From the NCBI GenBank assembly GCA_036703275.1, contig DATNPK010000089.1, positions 62,001 to 126,000 of the forward strand: a stretch of DNA of 64,000 bases, written 5' to 3'. This stretch comes from Coleofasciculaceae cyanobacterium. GTDB taxonomy: Bacteria > Cyanobacteriota > Cyanobacteriia > Cyanobacteriales > Xenococcaceae. A model generated the notes under the pieces. The model worked only from the letters and a program-made list of their open reading frames with translations, made no database searches and was not told the DNA's origin. Below, piece by piece: positions 55,515-64,000 of this stretch. Each line of letters begins with the position of its first letter. The first letter of the stretch is position 1. Position numbers and translations under genes: made by a program.

Positions 55515-56213
55515 TTAAGTATTTCGCTCGCCAAAAATAATTCTACCTAGACGAATTGCCGTAGCACCTGCTTTGATTGCCAGTTGGTAATCACTAGACA
55601 TTCCCATCGATAGCTGTTCCATGCTTAAATTCGAGTAGTTCTTTTGTTTTATTCTTGTTGCTAATTGATGGATTTCTTGAAATGCACTTAAAGTTTGTGC
55701 AGGAGACAATCCCTGAGGCAAAATTGTCATCAAACCCTGAATATTAAGATACTGATATTGATTCAATTGCTCTAAATCTTGTAACAATTCTGCAACTTGC
55801 CAGCCATACTTATTAGGATCTGATAAAACCTTGGTCTGCAAGAAAACTTTAGGTATACGGTTCAACTCCTCAGCGAGCCTGTTTAATCTTTGCGCCAAAG
55901 CAAAACTATCTACTGAATGAATCCAGTCAAAATTTTCCATGACTTTTCTAGCTTTATTTTTTTGAATATGACCAATAAAATGCCAGCTAATATCAGTTAA
56001 ATCTTGTAGCTGTTCTTGTTTTGTTAAAGCTTCTTGAAGACGATTTTCACCAAAATTGCTGATTCCTGCTGCATAAGCTTCTCGCATTGCTTCAATGCCG
56101 ACTTGTTTGGTAATTGCGATTAACTCAACATTTTGGGGAATTTGCTGCTTGATTAATTTAATTTGCTGCGTAATATAGCCTTCCATTAAGTTATTCTTTG
56201 AATTGGAGGTCAA
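55515..56213 (-). CDS. pipY: PLP homeostasis protein YggS/PipY
   Basis: The 232-residue protein matches the YggS/PLPBP family: single-domain alanine-racemase-like barrel with the PLP lysine in LIAITKQV, ISNFGENRLQEAL, and the C-terminal SMGMSSDYQLAIKAGAT and RLGRIIFG. It controls free pyridoxal phosphate and amino/keto-acid balance. It starts two bases after the pipX stop, the conserved cyanobacterial pipX-pipY operon. Confidence 0.95.
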   Translation of the reverse strand: MTSNSKNNLMEGYITQQIKLIKQQIPQNVELIAITKQVGIEAMREAYAAGISNFGENRLQEALTKQEQLQDLTDISWHFIGHIQKNKARKVMENFDWIHSVDSFALAQRLNRLAEELNRIPKVFLQTKVLSDPNKYGWQVAELLQDLEQLNQYQYLNIQGLMTILPQGLSPAQTLSAFQEIHQLATRIKQKNYSNLSMEQLSMGMSSDYQLAIKAGATAIRLGRIIFGERNT

Positions 56214-56215
56214 AA

Positions 56216-56494
56216 CTAAAGAAAAGTGCGTTGATAAATAGCCTGTAATTGTCGATGTTTTTCTGCTTCTCGGTCTAATAATAATCTTCGGAGTAAACTT
56301 TCCACTAACATACGAGCATCTGTCCTGCTAATAGGTTCAAAAGAAAAAGACGCGCTACTAGTAGTTACGGTAAAAAACAGACGTTGAGCGTACAGGGTAG
56401 TAAATAATTCTTGATTATCTTTCAACAGACATATTCTGTAGAGAAGTCCGAAAGTAGGGTGATTCAGGTAAACTTCATTGGGTTGATTATTCAC
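56216..56494 (-). CDS. pipX: PII-interacting protein X (NtcA co-activator)
   Basis: The 92-residue protein matches PipX: an N-terminal Tudor-like domain (YLNHPTFGLLYRICLLKD, then LFTTLYAQRLFF) and two C-terminal helices (ARMLVESLLRRLLLDREAEKHRQLQ in outline). PipX switches between NtcA, which it co-activates under nitrogen limitation, and PII. The length is right and the next gene is pipY, so assignment is secure. Confidence 0.95.
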   Translation of the reverse strand: MNNQPNEVYLNHPTFGLLYRICLLKDNQELFTTLYAQRLFFTVTTSSASFSFEPISRTDARMLVESLLRRLLLDREAEKHRQLQAIYQRTFL

Positions 56495-56879
56495 TCGGTA
56501 ATTAATTAATTTTTGCTATGTGCCAAGAATATTCTAAAAATTATACTATTCACCCTTCACCAGTGGAAATTCAAAGTTATAGATATAGCAGTCAAATTTA
56601 TAGCTGAGGACATCAGAATCTTGTTACAAAGAAAACGGGGAAGAGGAAATAGGAAAACGAGTAAAAATATTTTAATCTTTGCCCCGACTGCTATAACTCA
56701 GTATAAGTGAAGCTAATTATCTTAGATGAGCGTTAAACTATGGCTCAGTTGTGATAGCATTTTTGGGTCGAAAATCAAGTTATCGTTCTGATACCAAAGC
56801 TCAAAAAAACTAGATCTAAAACTATATATAGAGTAATATGGGCTAATCCTCGTTTACGAAACGCTATATGTGGTAAAAG
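56495..56879. promoter_or_regulatory. Divergent region pipX / nrdA
   Basis: About 385 bases between divergent genes. A 65-codon plus-strand frame at 56513 has no family features and I do not call it. The right end carries candidate NrdR boxes. Confidence 0.4.
56820..56875 (+). promoter_or_regulatory. Candidate paired NrdR boxes before nrdA
   Basis: CTATATATAG (56822-56831) and CTATATGTGG (56864-56873) resemble NrdR boxes, spaced 42 bases start to start, about four helical turns. They precede the ribonucleotide reductase gene, where NrdR repression is expected. The second box is imperfect. Confidence 0.4.
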
Positions 56880-59333
56880 TTGAGCTATAGTAAACAGACG
56901 AGTAAAAACTTTTCAGCCTCAGAGTATATGCAGCCAAGTTTCCCGTTAACCAGCAACTCCATATCAACAGCTAATTCAGAGCCAAAAGTCTCGAAAACTG
57001 GACGTAATCAGCAGCCGATCGCTAATCCTAATGGTTTAGGTAGCGTATTGCCTCAACAGCGTGATTCTACTTGCGCTCAGATGCCAGGAGAAATATTTGA
57101 GGCTGGTTCAACGACATCGATTCAGGTGGTAAGACGAGATGGTTCACTTACGCCTCTTAATATATCTAAAATTCGTTCTGTAGTTGAATGGGCCTGTAGC
57201 GAACAAAATGTTAATCTAATTACCCTAGAAGCTGGTTTAACCACTAGATTACGCAGCGGTGTAACCACTAGAGATATTCAGGATAATTTAATCGACTGCG
57301 CGTTGGGAATGTGTAGTCCTGATGAACCAGCATGGCGTTATGTAGCGGGAAGACTGCATATCTGGAGTCGCTGGAAAGATACTCAGGTAAGTCGGGGATT
57401 TGGCTATGGAAACTACCCCGCAGCAGTGCAATTTCAGCTAGAGGCCAAACGTTACGATCGCAATATTTTAAAATACTCTACGGCTGAACTAACGAAAGCA
57501 GGAACTTGGATTAATCCTGATTGGGACAAAGATTATGATTATGCTGGGGCAGTACTGTTAACTAAACGTTACCTGTTAACCAATGAACTACCTCAAGAAG
57601 CTTATCTTACCTGTGCTTTACTGCTTGCTGTTAATGAAAAGTCCGAAGTTAGATTGAATGTAGCCAGATCTTTTTATGAAGCGATCGCCCAACGGAAAAT
57701 TTCCTTAGCCACGCCGATTTTAGCTAACTTAAGAGTGCCAGATGGTTCTTTGAGTAGCTGCTTCATCATTGGCATGGATGATAATTTAGAAAGCATTTTT
57801 GCCGAAATCACCAACGCAGCCAGAATTTCTAAGAATGGTGGTGGCGTTGGGGTAAATGTCAGTCGGATCCGCGCTACTGGTAGCTGGGTAATGGGCAAAG
57901 ATCATGCTTCTGGGGGCGTTATTCCTTGGATTAAGTTGCTCAATGATACGGCGATCGCCGTTAATCAGGGTGGACGTAGGGCTGGGGCTGTGACTATTGG
58001 CTTGGATATCTGGCATTTAGATGTGCCTGAGTTTTTAGAGATGCAGGCGGAAAATGGCGATCGTCGTCGCAAAGCCTATGATGTCTTTCCCCAACTGGTA
58101 ATCGTCGATGAATTTATGCGTCGAGTCGAGCGATGCCAAAAGTGGACGCTGGTAGATCCCTATGAAGTTAAAGAAAAGTTAGGTATTGAGTTAGCCGAAC
58201 AATGGGGCGAAAACTTTGAAGCTGCTTATGCTCGAATTGAAGCAGAATTGGATCGTAAAATTACTCTCTACAAGCAAATAGATGCCCGCGAATTGTTTAA
58301 ACACATTATGCGGAGTCAGGTAGAGACAGGAATGCCTTATCTGGCGTTTAAGGATACGATTAATCGGGCAAATCCCAACAAGCATGAAGGTTATATTCCT
58401 GGGGTAAATCTCTGTTGTGAGAGCTTTAGCAACGTCAAGCCAGGGTTGGAGGCGCACTGCTGCAATTTAGTATCTCTTAATTTAGCTAACGTCGAAGAAT
58501 CTGAAATAGCTGATGCTGCTCGCTTAGCCGTGAGAATTCTCGACAATACAATTGATATAACCAAGCCTCCCTTTACCGATAGCAAGACCCATAACGACAA
58601 ATACCGCACGATTGGCGTAGGCTGTATGGGGTTAGCTGACTGGCTGGCAAAACGCCATTTAACTTATGAAAGCCTAGCGCAAATTAGTCATCTGTTTGAA
58701 GAGGTTGGCTACTGGTCTACCGCCGCTTCGATGGAATTAGCCAAAGAGCGTGGTGCTTATGCGGCGTTTCCTGGTAGCGAATGGAGTAAAAACAAACTAA
58801 TAGGTTCTAAGTCGTTAGAGGAGATTTTAGAACTTGCTCAAGATAAAGATCGTTGGATCCAGTTAGCCCAGAATATTAAAACCTACGGTATTCGTAATTC
58901 ACATATTACGGCGATCGCTCCTAACACTTCTTCTTCTCTGGTACAGGGTTGTACCGCTAGCATTCTACCTGCATACAGTAAGTTTTTCTATGACAAGTGG
59001 GCAAAAGGTACTGTACCTATTGCTCCTCCCTTTATCGAAGATTGCTTTTGGTTCTATCGCGAAAATAAAAGTCTCGATCAGAAAATCGTAGTTAAAGCAG
59101 TTGCAGTTATCCAACAGTGGATCGATACAGGCATTTCAATGGAATTATTGTTTAATCTCAATCAAGGAGTATATTTCCCTGATGAACCAGAAAGAGCAGT
59201 GAAAGCTAAAGATATTTATGAAACCCTAATCATGGCATGGAAAGAAGGCTGTAAAGCTGTCTATTACGTTCGTACTGTCCAAAAAGATGACTTTAAAGAG
59301 TCTGGTGAAGGCTGTACAGCTTGTGCCAATTAA
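56880..59333 (+). CDS. nrdA: Ribonucleoside-diphosphate reductase alpha subunit, class I
   Basis: The protein is up to 817 residues: an ATP-cone domain (SIQVVRRDGSLTPLNISKIR) and a ten-stranded catalytic barrel. Catalytic residues match: SSCFIIG, NLCCES (Asn, Cys, Glu of the active site) and AHCCNL; the tyrosine pair is near LPAYSKFFYDKW. It makes deoxyribonucleotides with NrdB, encoded elsewhere. The open frame starts at TTG 56880, just after a stop; the ATG at 56928 is equally plausible and gives 801 residues. Confidence 0.93.
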   Translation: MSYSKQTSKNFSASEYMQPSFPLTSNSISTANSEPKVSKTGRNQQPIANPNGLGSVLPQQRDSTCAQMPGEIFEAGSTTSIQVVRRDGSLTPLNISKIRSVVEWACSEQNVNLITLEAGLTTRLRSGVTTRDIQDNLIDCALGMCSPDEPAWRYVAGRLHIWSRWKDTQVSRGFGYGNYPAAVQFQLEAKRYDRNILKYSTAELTKAGTWINPDWDKDYDYAGAVLLTKRYLLTNELPQEAYLTCALLLAVNEKSEVRLNVARSFYEAIAQRKISLATPILANLRVPDGSLSSCFIIGMDDNLESIFAEITNAARISKNGGGVGVNVSRIRATGSWVMGKDHASGGVIPWIKLLNDTAIAVNQGGRRAGAVTIGLDIWHLDVPEFLEMQAENGDRRRKAYDVFPQLVIVDEFMRRVERCQKWTLVDPYEVKEKLGIELAEQWGENFEAAYARIEAELDRKITLYKQIDARELFKHIMRSQVETGMPYLAFKDTINRANPNKHEGYIPGVNLCCESFSNVKPGLEAHCCNLVSLNLANVEESEIADAARLAVRILDNTIDITKPPFTDSKTHNDKYRTIGVGCMGLADWLAKRHLTYESLAQISHLFEEVGYWSTAASMELAKERGAYAAFPGSEWSKNKLIGSKSLEEILELAQDKDRWIQLAQNIKTYGIRNSHITAIAPNTSSSLVQGCTASILPAYSKFFYDKWAKGTVPIAPPFIEDCFWFYRENKSLDQKIVVKAVAVIQQWIDTGISMELLFNLNQGVYFPDEPERAVKAKDIYETLIMAWKEGCKAVYYVRTVQKDDFKESGEGCTACAN

Positions 59334-59433: not shown

Positions 59434-59829
59434 TCACCGCATGATCGGGCTACCATGATGACTGACGATATACCATTTCTGCGCCATTTTCTGAAAGACA
59501 TTAGTTGCCATTGATTGCGCCTTCATTTTTTTGCCTCGGCTTGACTGCAACACTATTTCTCTGACCATCACGTAAGCAAGTGAGCGATCTGTTTCCACTT
59601 TGACAATTTCTATATCTATCTCCAAAGAATCAGTGTTACGAAAAATAGCGTCCCACGAGTCTCTAATCTCTGACCAACCTAAAATCGGCTGACTACCAGG
59701 ATGAATGCACAAGCTAGTTGAACCTTGCCACCATAAAGATGTCATTGCTTGGAGATCCTGACTAGAAAAAGCCTGGTAAAAAGATTCATTAGTAGCTAAA
59801 ACTATCTCTTTGTCTGTTGGATTAGTCAT
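59434..59829 (-). CDS. NTF2-like / SnoaL-like domain protein
   Basis: The 131-residue protein has the cone-shaped NTF2 fold pattern: N-terminal helices ([23 protein letters not shown]), [15 protein letters not shown], and a strand-rich C-terminus ending [12 protein letters not shown]. Many such proteins bind or isomerise small molecules; this subgroup is common in cyanobacteria and has no assigned reaction. It is divergent from ilvC. Confidence 0.8.
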
Positions 59830-59953: not shown

Positions 59954-60952
59954 ATGGCGCGGATGTATTACGACGAGGATGCCAATCTAGACCTGTTGAA
60001 AGATAAGACAGTAGCAATAATCGGTTATGGTTCTCAGGGACACGCTCATGCCCTTAATCTTAAAGATAGCGGAGTAAACGTAATTGTTGGTTTATATCCT
60101 GGAAGTAAGTCAAAAGCCAAAGCAGAGGCAGATGGATTAACCGTTCATTCTGTAGAAGATGCAGCTAAAGCAGCAGATCTAATTATGATTCTGCTACCAG
60201 ATGAAGTCCAAAAGAAAGTGTATACCGAAGAGATTGCGCCTCATCTAACCGACGGTAAAATTTTAGCGTTTGCTCATGGGTTCAATATTCACTTTGGTCA
60301 AATTATTCCTCCCCAGTCGGTAGACGTAATGATGGTTGCGCCAAAAGGTCCAGGACACTTGGTTAGACGCACCTACACTCAAGGACAGGGTGTACCCTGC
60401 CTATTTGCGGTATACCAAGATGCGACAGGTCAGGCACGCGATCGCGCTATGGCTTATGCTAAAGGTGTAGGCGGTACTAGAGCGGGTATTTTAGAAACTT
60501 CTTTTAGAGAAGAAACCGAAACCGATTTGTTTGGCGAACAAGCAGTTCTTTGTGGTGGTCTAAGCGCTTTGATTAAAACGGGCTTTGAAACCCTGGTAGA
60601 AGCTGGCTATCAGCCTGAATTGGCTTACTTTGAATGTTTGCATGAAGTTAAATTAATCGTCGATTTGATTGTTGAAGGCGGTTTGGCCAAAATGCGCGAT
60701 AGTATCTCGACTACCGCTGAATATGGTGATTATACTCGTGGTCCGAGAATAGTCAACGAAAATACTCGCGCTGAAATGCGTCAGATTTTGCGAGAAATTC
60801 AGCAAGGGGATTTTGCCCGTGACTTTATCTTAGAAAACCAGGCTGGTAAGCCAGGATTTACCGCTACCCGCCGTTTGGAAGCAGAACATCCCATTGAAGA
60901 GGTGGGTAAAGATGTTCGCGCTCACTTTAGCTGGCTCAAAAATGTCAAGTAA
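59954..60952 (+). CDS. ilvC: Ketol-acid reductoisomerase
   Basis: I start at ATG 59954 ([13 protein letters not shown]), preceded by a GGAGA site, giving 332 residues, the usual class I length. The NADPH loop is [19 protein letters not shown] and the metal site includes [12 protein letters not shown] and [14 protein letters not shown]. It catalyses the second step of valine, leucine and isoleucine synthesis. A longer in-frame start at 59810 adds sequence unlike the family. Confidence 0.96.
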
Positions 60953-61024: not shown

Positions 61025-63161
61025 TTAGGCACAGATAATTTTCTGGCGATCGACTCCTTGTAACACCCCAACTCCTCCCAAACGCTGAACCAATTTTGCC
61101 ATTCTATCGGCAAAATGAATAACGCAAGGAAGACGACTATAAGCAGATGCGCTGGCAGGGTTTAGCATACACAGTCTATCAATTTGACGAGCTAAAATTT
61201 CTAAAGGCGCATCTCCATAATCTCTAACTACTTGCAAAGGACGCGCGCTTCCTCCCGCCTTGGCTTCAGAAGTAACAATACGAAAAGTATCTCCATCAGC
61301 TGATAGTATCGCTGTTCCAGGTAATGCGTCTTCTAAAGACTCTGATTGATAAGGTAATACTGCCATCCTACCTGCACCACTTTTTCTCACCCCTAAAATA
61401 TCGACGGCGATCTTTGCTTGCTTCAACTCGGCAACTGTTTCCAAAAATTCATCCGCCTGAACCAAACCATCTCTCAGTAACAGTATCCGTTTCGGCATTC
61501 TATTTTCTTGATTCTGAAATATAGTAATAATATTACTTACAGTACGCCAGACTACTCGACCACTTATTGTTTCTCGTTGCGCTTCAGGAATTTCCCAACC
61601 CAAATTTTGTCCGTTGGCTAAGACAGCAAACGCACTTGTACCGTAATACATTTGTCTATTTGTTCCCGCATCAAAACCAATCACTACTTCTGCTGCGTAT
61701 TGATCTTGGATCGCTTTTAATCCGACTGGCTGCCATTTTGCTTTCAGTAATAAACCTAGAACAATGTTAGCAATGCGATAATCTTCAAGCTTAAACATAG
61801 GCTGCATAAACTGAAGTGCAATATTAGCTTCTAAAGCTTCTCTTTGAAATTGAGCTTTTATTGTATTTTCTAACCAGGGGGTGACAACCAAAATAGTTTG
61901 AGTACCTTGATTTGCCCAACTCTGCCAAAATTGTTTACGTGCTAACGAACTATTTGGTAAATCCTGTTTATTTTTTGCAGATTCTAGAAAAATATTTACA
62001 TCACTTTTTTTAGCTACACTTTCTAGCTTATTGCTAATAAATTTTGACCAGCCACCGCTGTTTGTTAAATCTAAGCAACCAAACTGTTTTTCCCCAACAC
62101 TATAACAGCCTAAATCTAGACTTTTTTTAGGACGATTAACCTTAATTGATTTAGTTAATAGTAAGGGCGATTTATCTCTCAAAATAATTCCTAGAACTTT
62201 TTGAGGTTTTATCCTAACATCAACATTGTAAATTTTTTGAGCCAACCATTTAGCTGTATTCTCCCCTTTTTTAAAGCGATCTTTAGTAGGTTGACGAGTT
62301 TGAGAAAAAACTTAGCAGCTTCTTTGGAACCTCTTTCTTTTAAAATACTTAAAATTTCCATTGTTATACTAGGTCTTAATCTAGTAGAAAGATGTGGTAT
62401 TTCTTGATTTTTGCTATCTAAATAAACAACCCTCGCATCCTTAATTTCAGCTTCTGTTGCAGGTATGTTTAATTTTCGATGATAATCTGTTAGACTCGCC
62501 CCTGTTAATAATATTACTTGCTCAGGGTTTTCATTACTAGTGCGAACTAGTTGCCAAGAAAGAAAATTATAGGTATTTCGTACCCACTTAATTGGAATAT
62601 CAGAATAAGTTTGTAACCATTGTTATAATGTCCAAGGAGAGTAAAAACGATGATGAGTATCAAGTTCAACTAATACCATGCCTGAATAGTGAAGCTCTAA
62701 ATCTAAACGAACCCCTGTGTGAACTTCCCAACCTAAATCTTCGAGAATAATTTTATCCGCATTCCACAAATAAATCCTCCTTCTCGGGCTTTTTCTATTC
62801 TATTTCTTGCGGATCTTTGTCTAATTTCATTACCTAACCAACGCCTTTCTAGTCTTTCTAAAGCCTGTTTTTCAACTAACTTTTCTGAATTTAAAAGCTT
62901 GGTTTCTTGATGTTGTAAAGTCCAATCTTTATTACTCAAGTATTTGTCAGATATTTTCTCTTTAGTAATAATAGTTGAACCAAATCTTACTCCTGATGTA
63001 TATCCAATTTTATAAGGAATGCTGTTGATTGCAGAATATTCTTGACCTAATTCAGGAGATGACTCAAAGTTGCATTTATAGATCTGAACAGTTTTATCCA
63101 CCTCAGTTAATTTTTTAAGCGGAAAGCGATTTAAGTAGACTTTAACGTCGGCTTGATTCAT
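61025..63161 (-). pseudogene. Prokaryotic Argonaute (long, PIWI-containing), broken by two frameshifts and one stop
   Basis: Read together, three segments make one protein of about 710 residues. Segment one (63161 to about 62790) is the N domain, starting MNQADVKVYLNRFP. After a frameshift near 62770-62795, segment two reads RIYLWNADKIILEDLGWEVH and the PAZ-like HYSGMVLVELDTHHRFYSPW, an in-frame TAA at 62623-62625, then WLQTYSDIPIKWVRN. A second frameshift lies in an A6 run at 62305-62310. Segment three (61025-62245, 406 codons) holds MID and PIWI. The PIWI segments are VVIGFDAGTNRQ, ILLLRDGLVQADEF and VIHFADRMAKL, so Asp192, Glu225 (or 221), Asp259 and Asp380 of this frame form a likely catalytic set. 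Argonautes use guide nucleic acids to attack invading DNA or RNA. No partner nuclease is adjacent. Confidence 0.8.
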
Positions 63162-63266: not shown

Positions 63267-64000
63267 TTAATTAGTTGATTGTTGATTAATCAAATCTTTC
63301 ACTGTCGAGACTTGAACTTTGCTTTGAGGTATTTGTATTTCTTGAGTAATAATCGCCGATTGCAATATTGGCGTAGTAGCAACAGAATTACTGCTCAAGG
63401 TAAACAAAGGATTAGATAAAATTCCAGCTAAGGAAGTAATAATTGCTGAAGCTACAAGACCTACTTGTAAAGGTCGCATGCCTGGAAGCTTCCAGTTGAT
63501 AGTCGGGTAGTTTTTAACCGACTCGGACATTTCCTGGGGTTCTTTCACTACCATCATTTTAACGACGCGGATGTAGTAGTAAATCGAGATAACGCTGGTG
63601 ATTAAACCAAGTAAGACTAAGCCATAAAGCCCAGCTTGCCAACCTGCCCAAAATAGATAAATCTTACCGAAGAAGCCAGCCATCGGGGGAATACCGCCCA
63701 AAGAAAGTAAGCAGATGCTCAAGCAAAGAGTTAGTAAGGGATCTTTTTGATATAAACCTGCATATTCACCAATTTGATCTGTACCTGTACGCAGAGAGAA
63801 CAGAATAATACAGGTAAACGCTCCCAGGTTCATAAATAAATAGATAAACAGGTAAAAGATCATGCTGGAGTAACCATTATCAGTACCAGCAATCAGACCA
63901 ATCATCACAAAGCCAGCTTGGGCGATGGATGAATATGCCAACATTCGCTTGATGCTAGTTTGCGCTAGGGCTACCACGTTACCCAATATTAGACTGAGAA
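63267..64000 (-). CDS. ndhB: NAD(P)H-quinone oxidoreductase subunit 2 (NdhB), partial
   Basis: The C-terminal 244 or so residues are visible and the frame runs off the window edge. Segments [56 protein letters not shown] and [19 protein letters not shown] are typical of cyanobacterial NdhB. It is a proton-pumping membrane subunit of the NDH-1 complex in respiration and cyclic electron flow around photosystem I. Confidence 0.95.

Follow-up and report, generated by a model that had tools for sequence, protein, structure and literature searches.

The window analysed here is a stretch of 64,000 nucleotides that forms part of contig C89 in a draft cyanobacterial assembly (5.62 Mb, 116 contigs). 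Between ilvC and ndhB, consecutive parts of one Argonaute were carried in three reverse-strand frames. The nearest relative found was a Myxosarcina sp. MAG (G012, JAIMKV010000006.1), the sole genome returned by a search of genome contigs that reached close relatives only. The features of the locus were as follows:

59954–60952, forward strand: ilvC, intact, 98% identity with the G012 protein across 330 residues (name from sequence)
61025–62311, reverse strand: MID-PIWI fragment with 428 open codons (PADLOC pAgo, Pfam Piwi, TtAgo alignment)
about 61575–61576, reverse strand: in-frame loss of 3 nt, removing the residue that precedes the Glu-finger glutamate (G012 alignment; position approximate)
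62290–62622, reverse strand: PAZ fragment downstream of the TAA (Pfam PAZ_3, PADLOC pAgo, identity to G012)
62312–62313, reverse strand: second frameshift, at the PAZ/MID boundary in a short A stretch of the reverse strand (G012 alignment)
62623–62625, reverse strand: TAA stop, in frame between both frameshifts (position exact; a substitution)
62733–63161, reverse strand: N-terminal fragment with an ATG start, continuing past the first frameshift as far as an out-of-frame stop
about 62767–62768, reverse strand: first frameshift (DNA alignment with G012)
63267–64000, reverse strand: ndhB, 3' part within the window, intact, 95% identity with the G012 protein across 243 residues (name from sequence)

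The three segments matched successive parts of the PADLOC pAgo profile PDLC02387, namely positions 2–125 for the N piece (62733–63161; E = 1.2e-33), 170–264 for the middle piece (62290–62622; E = 6.6e-30), and 262–671 of 672 for the C piece (61028–62311; E = 1.7e-169). Pfam assigned PAZ_3 to the middle piece (80.7 bits; cut-off 27) and Piwi to the C piece (38.4 bits; cut-off 28.9), while Ago_Mid on the C piece stayed under its cut-off (20.6; cut-off 27) and neither the N piece nor the short piece at 62626–62784 gave a Pfam hit. The best solved relative of the C piece was TtAgo, which aligned over residues 282–683 (E = 2.2e-55). Similarity of this order greatly exceeds what chance would give. 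Amino-acid identity to the G012 Argonaute was 90% for the N piece (G012 residues 1–131), 95% for the PAZ piece (first 106 residues), and 90% for the C piece. An earlier note, made from the DNA letters alone, had joined the three reverse-strand segments into one Argonaute; PADLOC, Pfam, and the G012 alignment bear this out, and the pAgo, PAZ_3, and Piwi matches uphold the Argonaute call. The C-terminal frame of 406 codons that it described is right when counted from the TTG at 62245, and reaches 428 codons when followed back to the previous stop. The whole genome gave one Piwi match, and no second Argonaute copy was found in it.

By sequence, positions 61025–63161 on the reverse strand were confirmed as a TtAgo-type pAgo of the long-A class broken by two frameshifts and a TAA, where long-A stands for closeness to TtAgo rather than for a placement beside long-B and short pAgos in a clade tree. 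The MID and PIWI parts were TtAgo-related, as long-A membership requires (with Ago_Mid under its cut-off), and the PAZ and N parts of the long-A architecture were present as remnants in broken frames, the N part by the PADLOC profile only. The single intact reading frame expected of a long-A member was absent. With two frameshifts and one stop, the gene is therefore best regarded as a pseudogene of the long-A family and not as a working member of it.

In G012, the same ilvC and ndhB flank an Argonaute with one uninterrupted 718-codon frame, and the two genomes were collinear around it (C79:24461 to 67311). The locus thus combines disabling lesions with an uninterrupted orthologue at the same place in a relative, as is expected of a pseudogene. 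The alignment also placed all frame-breaking lesions in the N/PAZ half, as had been proposed. By our own arithmetic, three random hits would all spare the C half in about 6% of cases, so the restriction of lesions to the N half is weak evidence for a surviving C half. Of the positions proposed earlier for the lesions, that of the TAA (62623–62625) was exact and all were within a few bases, the first frameshift falling just outside the range of 62770–62795. The frameshift attributed to an A6 run does exist, but it sits beside that run (62305–62310) and not within it, and the run has equal length in G012.

The in-frame loss of 3 nt at about 61575 was absent from the earlier lesion list, and it bears on the claim that the PIWI active site is intact. 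The residues of the D-E-D-X tetrad were all kept, with equivalents of TtAgo D478, E512, D546, and D660 in the alignment, and to this extent the claim stands; the Gly adjoining the Glu finger was deleted. This Gly was present in 20 of 20 other homologues examined (18 cyanobacterial proteins, TtAgo, and the copy of G019; those of G014 and G019 are broken elsewhere). In TtAgo, the active site is described as being completed by E512, a glutamate inserted by PIWI loop 2 (PMC4390867).

Broken Argonautes were also found in other genomes. In a sample of the order, 17 of 388 genomes had a close Argonaute relative (E ≤ 1e-20); 12 of these carried one open frame across nearly the whole gene, and five held broken copies or remnants. 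The lesions differed among the five. Besides the window genome, these are G019, whose frame changes at the same PAZ/MID junction; G014, with a short insertion close to the 3' end of the gene; G006, where only the 3' end was found, on a contig of 4.1 kb and preceded by different sequence; and G071, where the Argonaute is decayed and contains stops. Four of the five belong to the window's own family, G071 lying outside it. As judged from these sequences, Argonaute loss is recurrent, mainly in that family. In a phylum sample that overlaps the order sample, 8 of 386 genomes matched at E ≤ 1e-40, and the window's copy was the sole broken one. The Argonautes of G449, G507, and G559 were 44–45% identical. 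Our open-access literature search found no paper on broken cyanobacterial pAgos; one paper mentions that some pAgo sequences are fragmented or truncated, with annotation blamed for those excluded (PMC2743648). Separately, the frame changes of G019 (L027:9035–9110) and the window (62270–62345) fall at one A-rich junction, which is perhaps a mutation hotspot.

Apart from the lesions, the gene showed no sign of decay. The dN/dS between the window and G012 Argonautes was 0.21 (693 codons), with 0.201 and 0.217 in the N and C halves, respectively; four pairs of uninterrupted Argonautes, used as a yardstick, gave 0.14–0.27, and the 25 neighbouring genes compared with G012 had a median of 0.11. When amino-acid changes were polarised with five outgroups, 14 fell on the window branch and 21 on the G012 branch, with 20 unresolved, and at positions invariant in the five outgroups each branch had five. 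The relaxed substitution pattern expected of a pseudogene was thus absent, with no excess on the window branch; either the loss was too recent or recombination has blurred the signal. As there is no decay beyond the lesions, the loss looks recent, and the earlier suggestion of a recent loss gains support from this and from the orthologue in place in G012. The Argonaute had the lowest dS of 26 genes compared with G012 (0.20; 0.25–0.62 in the other 25, median 0.37). The aligned pair (61025–63161 and L021:7727–9883) was a mosaic in which blocks of zero divergence lay beside strongly diverged ones. Together with the lowest dS, these blocks suggest recombination, in which pieces would have been exchanged between lineages, and the dating of the loss may therefore be blurred.

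The locus is thus very likely a recently inactivated stand-alone long-A pAgo of the TtAgo/SeAgo type, as far as sequence comparison can tell. By analogy with that type, the intact form would have bound short DNA guides through MID and PAZ, cut matching DNA at the RNase-H-like D-E-D-D site of PIWI, and restricted plasmids and incoming DNA. The two frameshifts and the stop would end translation inside the N/PAZ half, and the codon loss beside the Glu finger would have altered the PIWI loop. Standard translation would give no full-length protein, so the strain most likely lacks the activity, a loss of function that we infer from the gene. On the same analogy, we infer that the strain may recently have lost a barrier to DNA uptake.

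That the lesions are sequencing or assembly errors, and the Argonaute is intact in the organism, appears very unlikely. They are known from one draft assembly, in 116 contigs, and were compared with a MAG, and two of them are frameshifts next to short homopolymers. One lesion, however, is a stop made by substitution, and an in-frame codon loss accompanies it. Neighbouring genes also speak against error. The comparison took in 80 G012 ORFs (≥100 aa), of which 29 matched stretches of the window genome at ≥60% identity (the 51 unmatched ORFs were left unjudged); 27 of these 29 were unbroken. The exceptions were the Argonaute gene and a 122-codon ORF (C79:37733–38101) with three stops in the window genome, which lies wholly inside an opposite-strand ORF of 900 codons (L021:11867–14569) and is very probably no gene. 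With the other exception antisense, these counts make assembly error unlikely. A codon comparison of 25 of the 27 unbroken ORFs (G012 C79:39689–40288 and 55762–56550 were left out) gave no frame-breaking lesion in 10,509 codons, as against the three concentrated in the roughly 700 codons of the Argonaute gene; three random errors would all land in this gene with a probability of about 3e-4 (own arithmetic, made after the fact).

The earlier note had also considered that the C-terminal part survives as a MID-PIWI-only protein. Such a protein would bind guides with no or altered cutting. There are 428 open codons, all four catalytic residues are kept, and the C half had a dN/dS of 0.217 without a surplus of changes along the window branch (10, compared with 14 on the G012 branch and 14 unresolved); a low dN/dS in an open C half would suit a C-terminal protein in use. 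PAZ-less long pAgos do exist, with 31 counted in one paper (PMC6299218), and the open frame of a distant PIWI relative in G042 (29% identity, E = 1.9e-12) is just 447 codons long. The start sites, however, are poor. The first in-frame start is the TTG at 62245, which has no well-placed ribosome site, its closest purine-rich stretch stopping some 15 nt before it; later starts are TTGs at 62182 and 61891, and the first ATG, at 61807, is where the PIWI match begins. Promoter-like sites were not enriched (5, versus 7.2 in shuffles, sd 2.8). Constraint on the C half did not exceed that on the N half (0.217 vs 0.201), and selection on the C half alone was rejected since the values are alike. The Gly kept beside the Glu finger in the 20 other homologues is deleted here, and the intact close relatives, that is, the 12 in the order sample and the unbroken ones in the phylum sample, span nearly the whole long protein, none being without PAZ. 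The survival proposed in the note thus found no support, and production of such a protein is very unlikely. Also very unlikely, and given slightly less credence, is a reading of the 3' half as a separate short-pAgo-like MID-PIWI Argonaute newly arisen from a long pAgo, whose shortened Glu-finger loop would leave guide binding without cutting. A short pAgo would be a MID-PIWI-only gene with its own start and often a partner; here N/PAZ remnants lie directly upstream in other frames, the start is weak, and there is no partner between ilvC and ndhB. The PIWI of short pAgos is moreover described as lacking the catalytic tetrad (PMC6299218), the residues of which are present in the window copy. As a separate observation, a terminator-like hairpin lies 3' of ndhB and a promoter-like site upstream of the ATG of the N-terminal fragment, both kinds occurring at chance frequency in the region.

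Programmed frameshifting or recoding that would give a full-length protein is almost certainly not the explanation: G019 does change frame at the same A-rich junction, but one mRNA would need two shifts and one readthrough, and programmed frameshifting at the PAZ/MID junction was rejected because seven other relatives aligned there cross it in one frame and the lesions of G014, G006, and G071 differ in both kind and position.

The surroundings of the broken Argonaute were compared as well. No partner gene lies between ilvC and ndhB, as the earlier note had stated, and the neighbours of the gene vary among relatives. A constant partner nuclease was rejected, since the neighbours differed among ten proteins scanned at the loci of six relatives (an Mfd-like protein, two Uma2 proteins, a Y1 transposase-like protein, DUF554, an RF-1-like protein, a riboflavin-kinase-like protein (DUF120), an ion channel, a glyoxalase, and a trypsin-like protein). 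The Argonaute genes of three relatives are immediately preceded by an ORF of the Y1 (IS200-like) transposase type (L022:10573–11160, assigned by Pfam; L023:6681–7255 and L028:4930–5577, by likeness of the first residues only). Genes for putative nucleases of the Uma2 type lie near the Argonaute gene or its remnant in three relatives (L025:7722–8270 and L028:2000–2569, by Pfam; L030:541–1092, by sequence likeness only). In the window, a 131-aa ORF on the reverse strand (59434–59829), between the gene at 56880–59333 and ilvC, found no match in the equivalent stretch of G012 (L021).

Comparison of the locus in relatives found an uninterrupted homologue between ilvC and ndhB in G012. No adjacency of the two flanking genes was seen in 15 other genomes of the genus or family, where fragmented assemblies could hide it. 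The two genes share a contig in G007, G009, G011, G013, and G020, separated by roughly 250 kb or more, and lie on separate contigs in 9 of the 15; a close ndhB was not found in G010. In a MID-PIWI tree, the window and G012 Argonautes grouped with those of the same-genus genomes G002, G003, and G004 with support of 86/96, below the firm mark of the tool, and the Argonaute locus of these three differs from ilvC–ndhB. On these sequences, vertical descent with moves and losses would fit as well as horizontal transfer into the ilvC–ndhB gap.

The case looks like an ordinary loss of a defence gene in a known family and not like a new kind of protein, and it leaves knowledge of Argonautes unchanged. 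It offers a clean and recent loss of a defence nuclease of which a related species still has an uninterrupted copy, and the window genome and G012 form a natural comparison of lineages without and with the gene. The pair is informative because SeAgo of Synechococcus elongatus is reported to hinder DNA uptake, lowering natural transformation and RSF1010 maintenance (PMC10653904).

Among known systems, the closest was the G012 Argonaute, which shares the ilvC–ndhB locus and 90, 95, and 90% identity of the respective pieces; unlike the window copy, it has one frame of 718 codons and retains the Gly that precedes the Glu finger. TtAgo of Thermus thermophilus aligned with the MID-PIWI part and has its four catalytic residues conserved there, whereas the N/PAZ part of the window copy is broken and the residue preceding E512 has no counterpart in it. 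SeAgo, described as a TtAgo relative from cyanobacteria that cuts DNA with DNA guides and whose natural functions are still to be investigated (PMC10269773), is likened here by description and not through comparison with its sequence by name; it is functional, whereas the window copy is broken. The PAZ-less truncated long pAgos, such as AfAgo, and the short pAgos are built as the C fragment would be if it were made (PMC6299218), but these are whole genes, while the window holds the 3' part of a long gene that has been broken and that lies without a partner between ilvC and ndhB.
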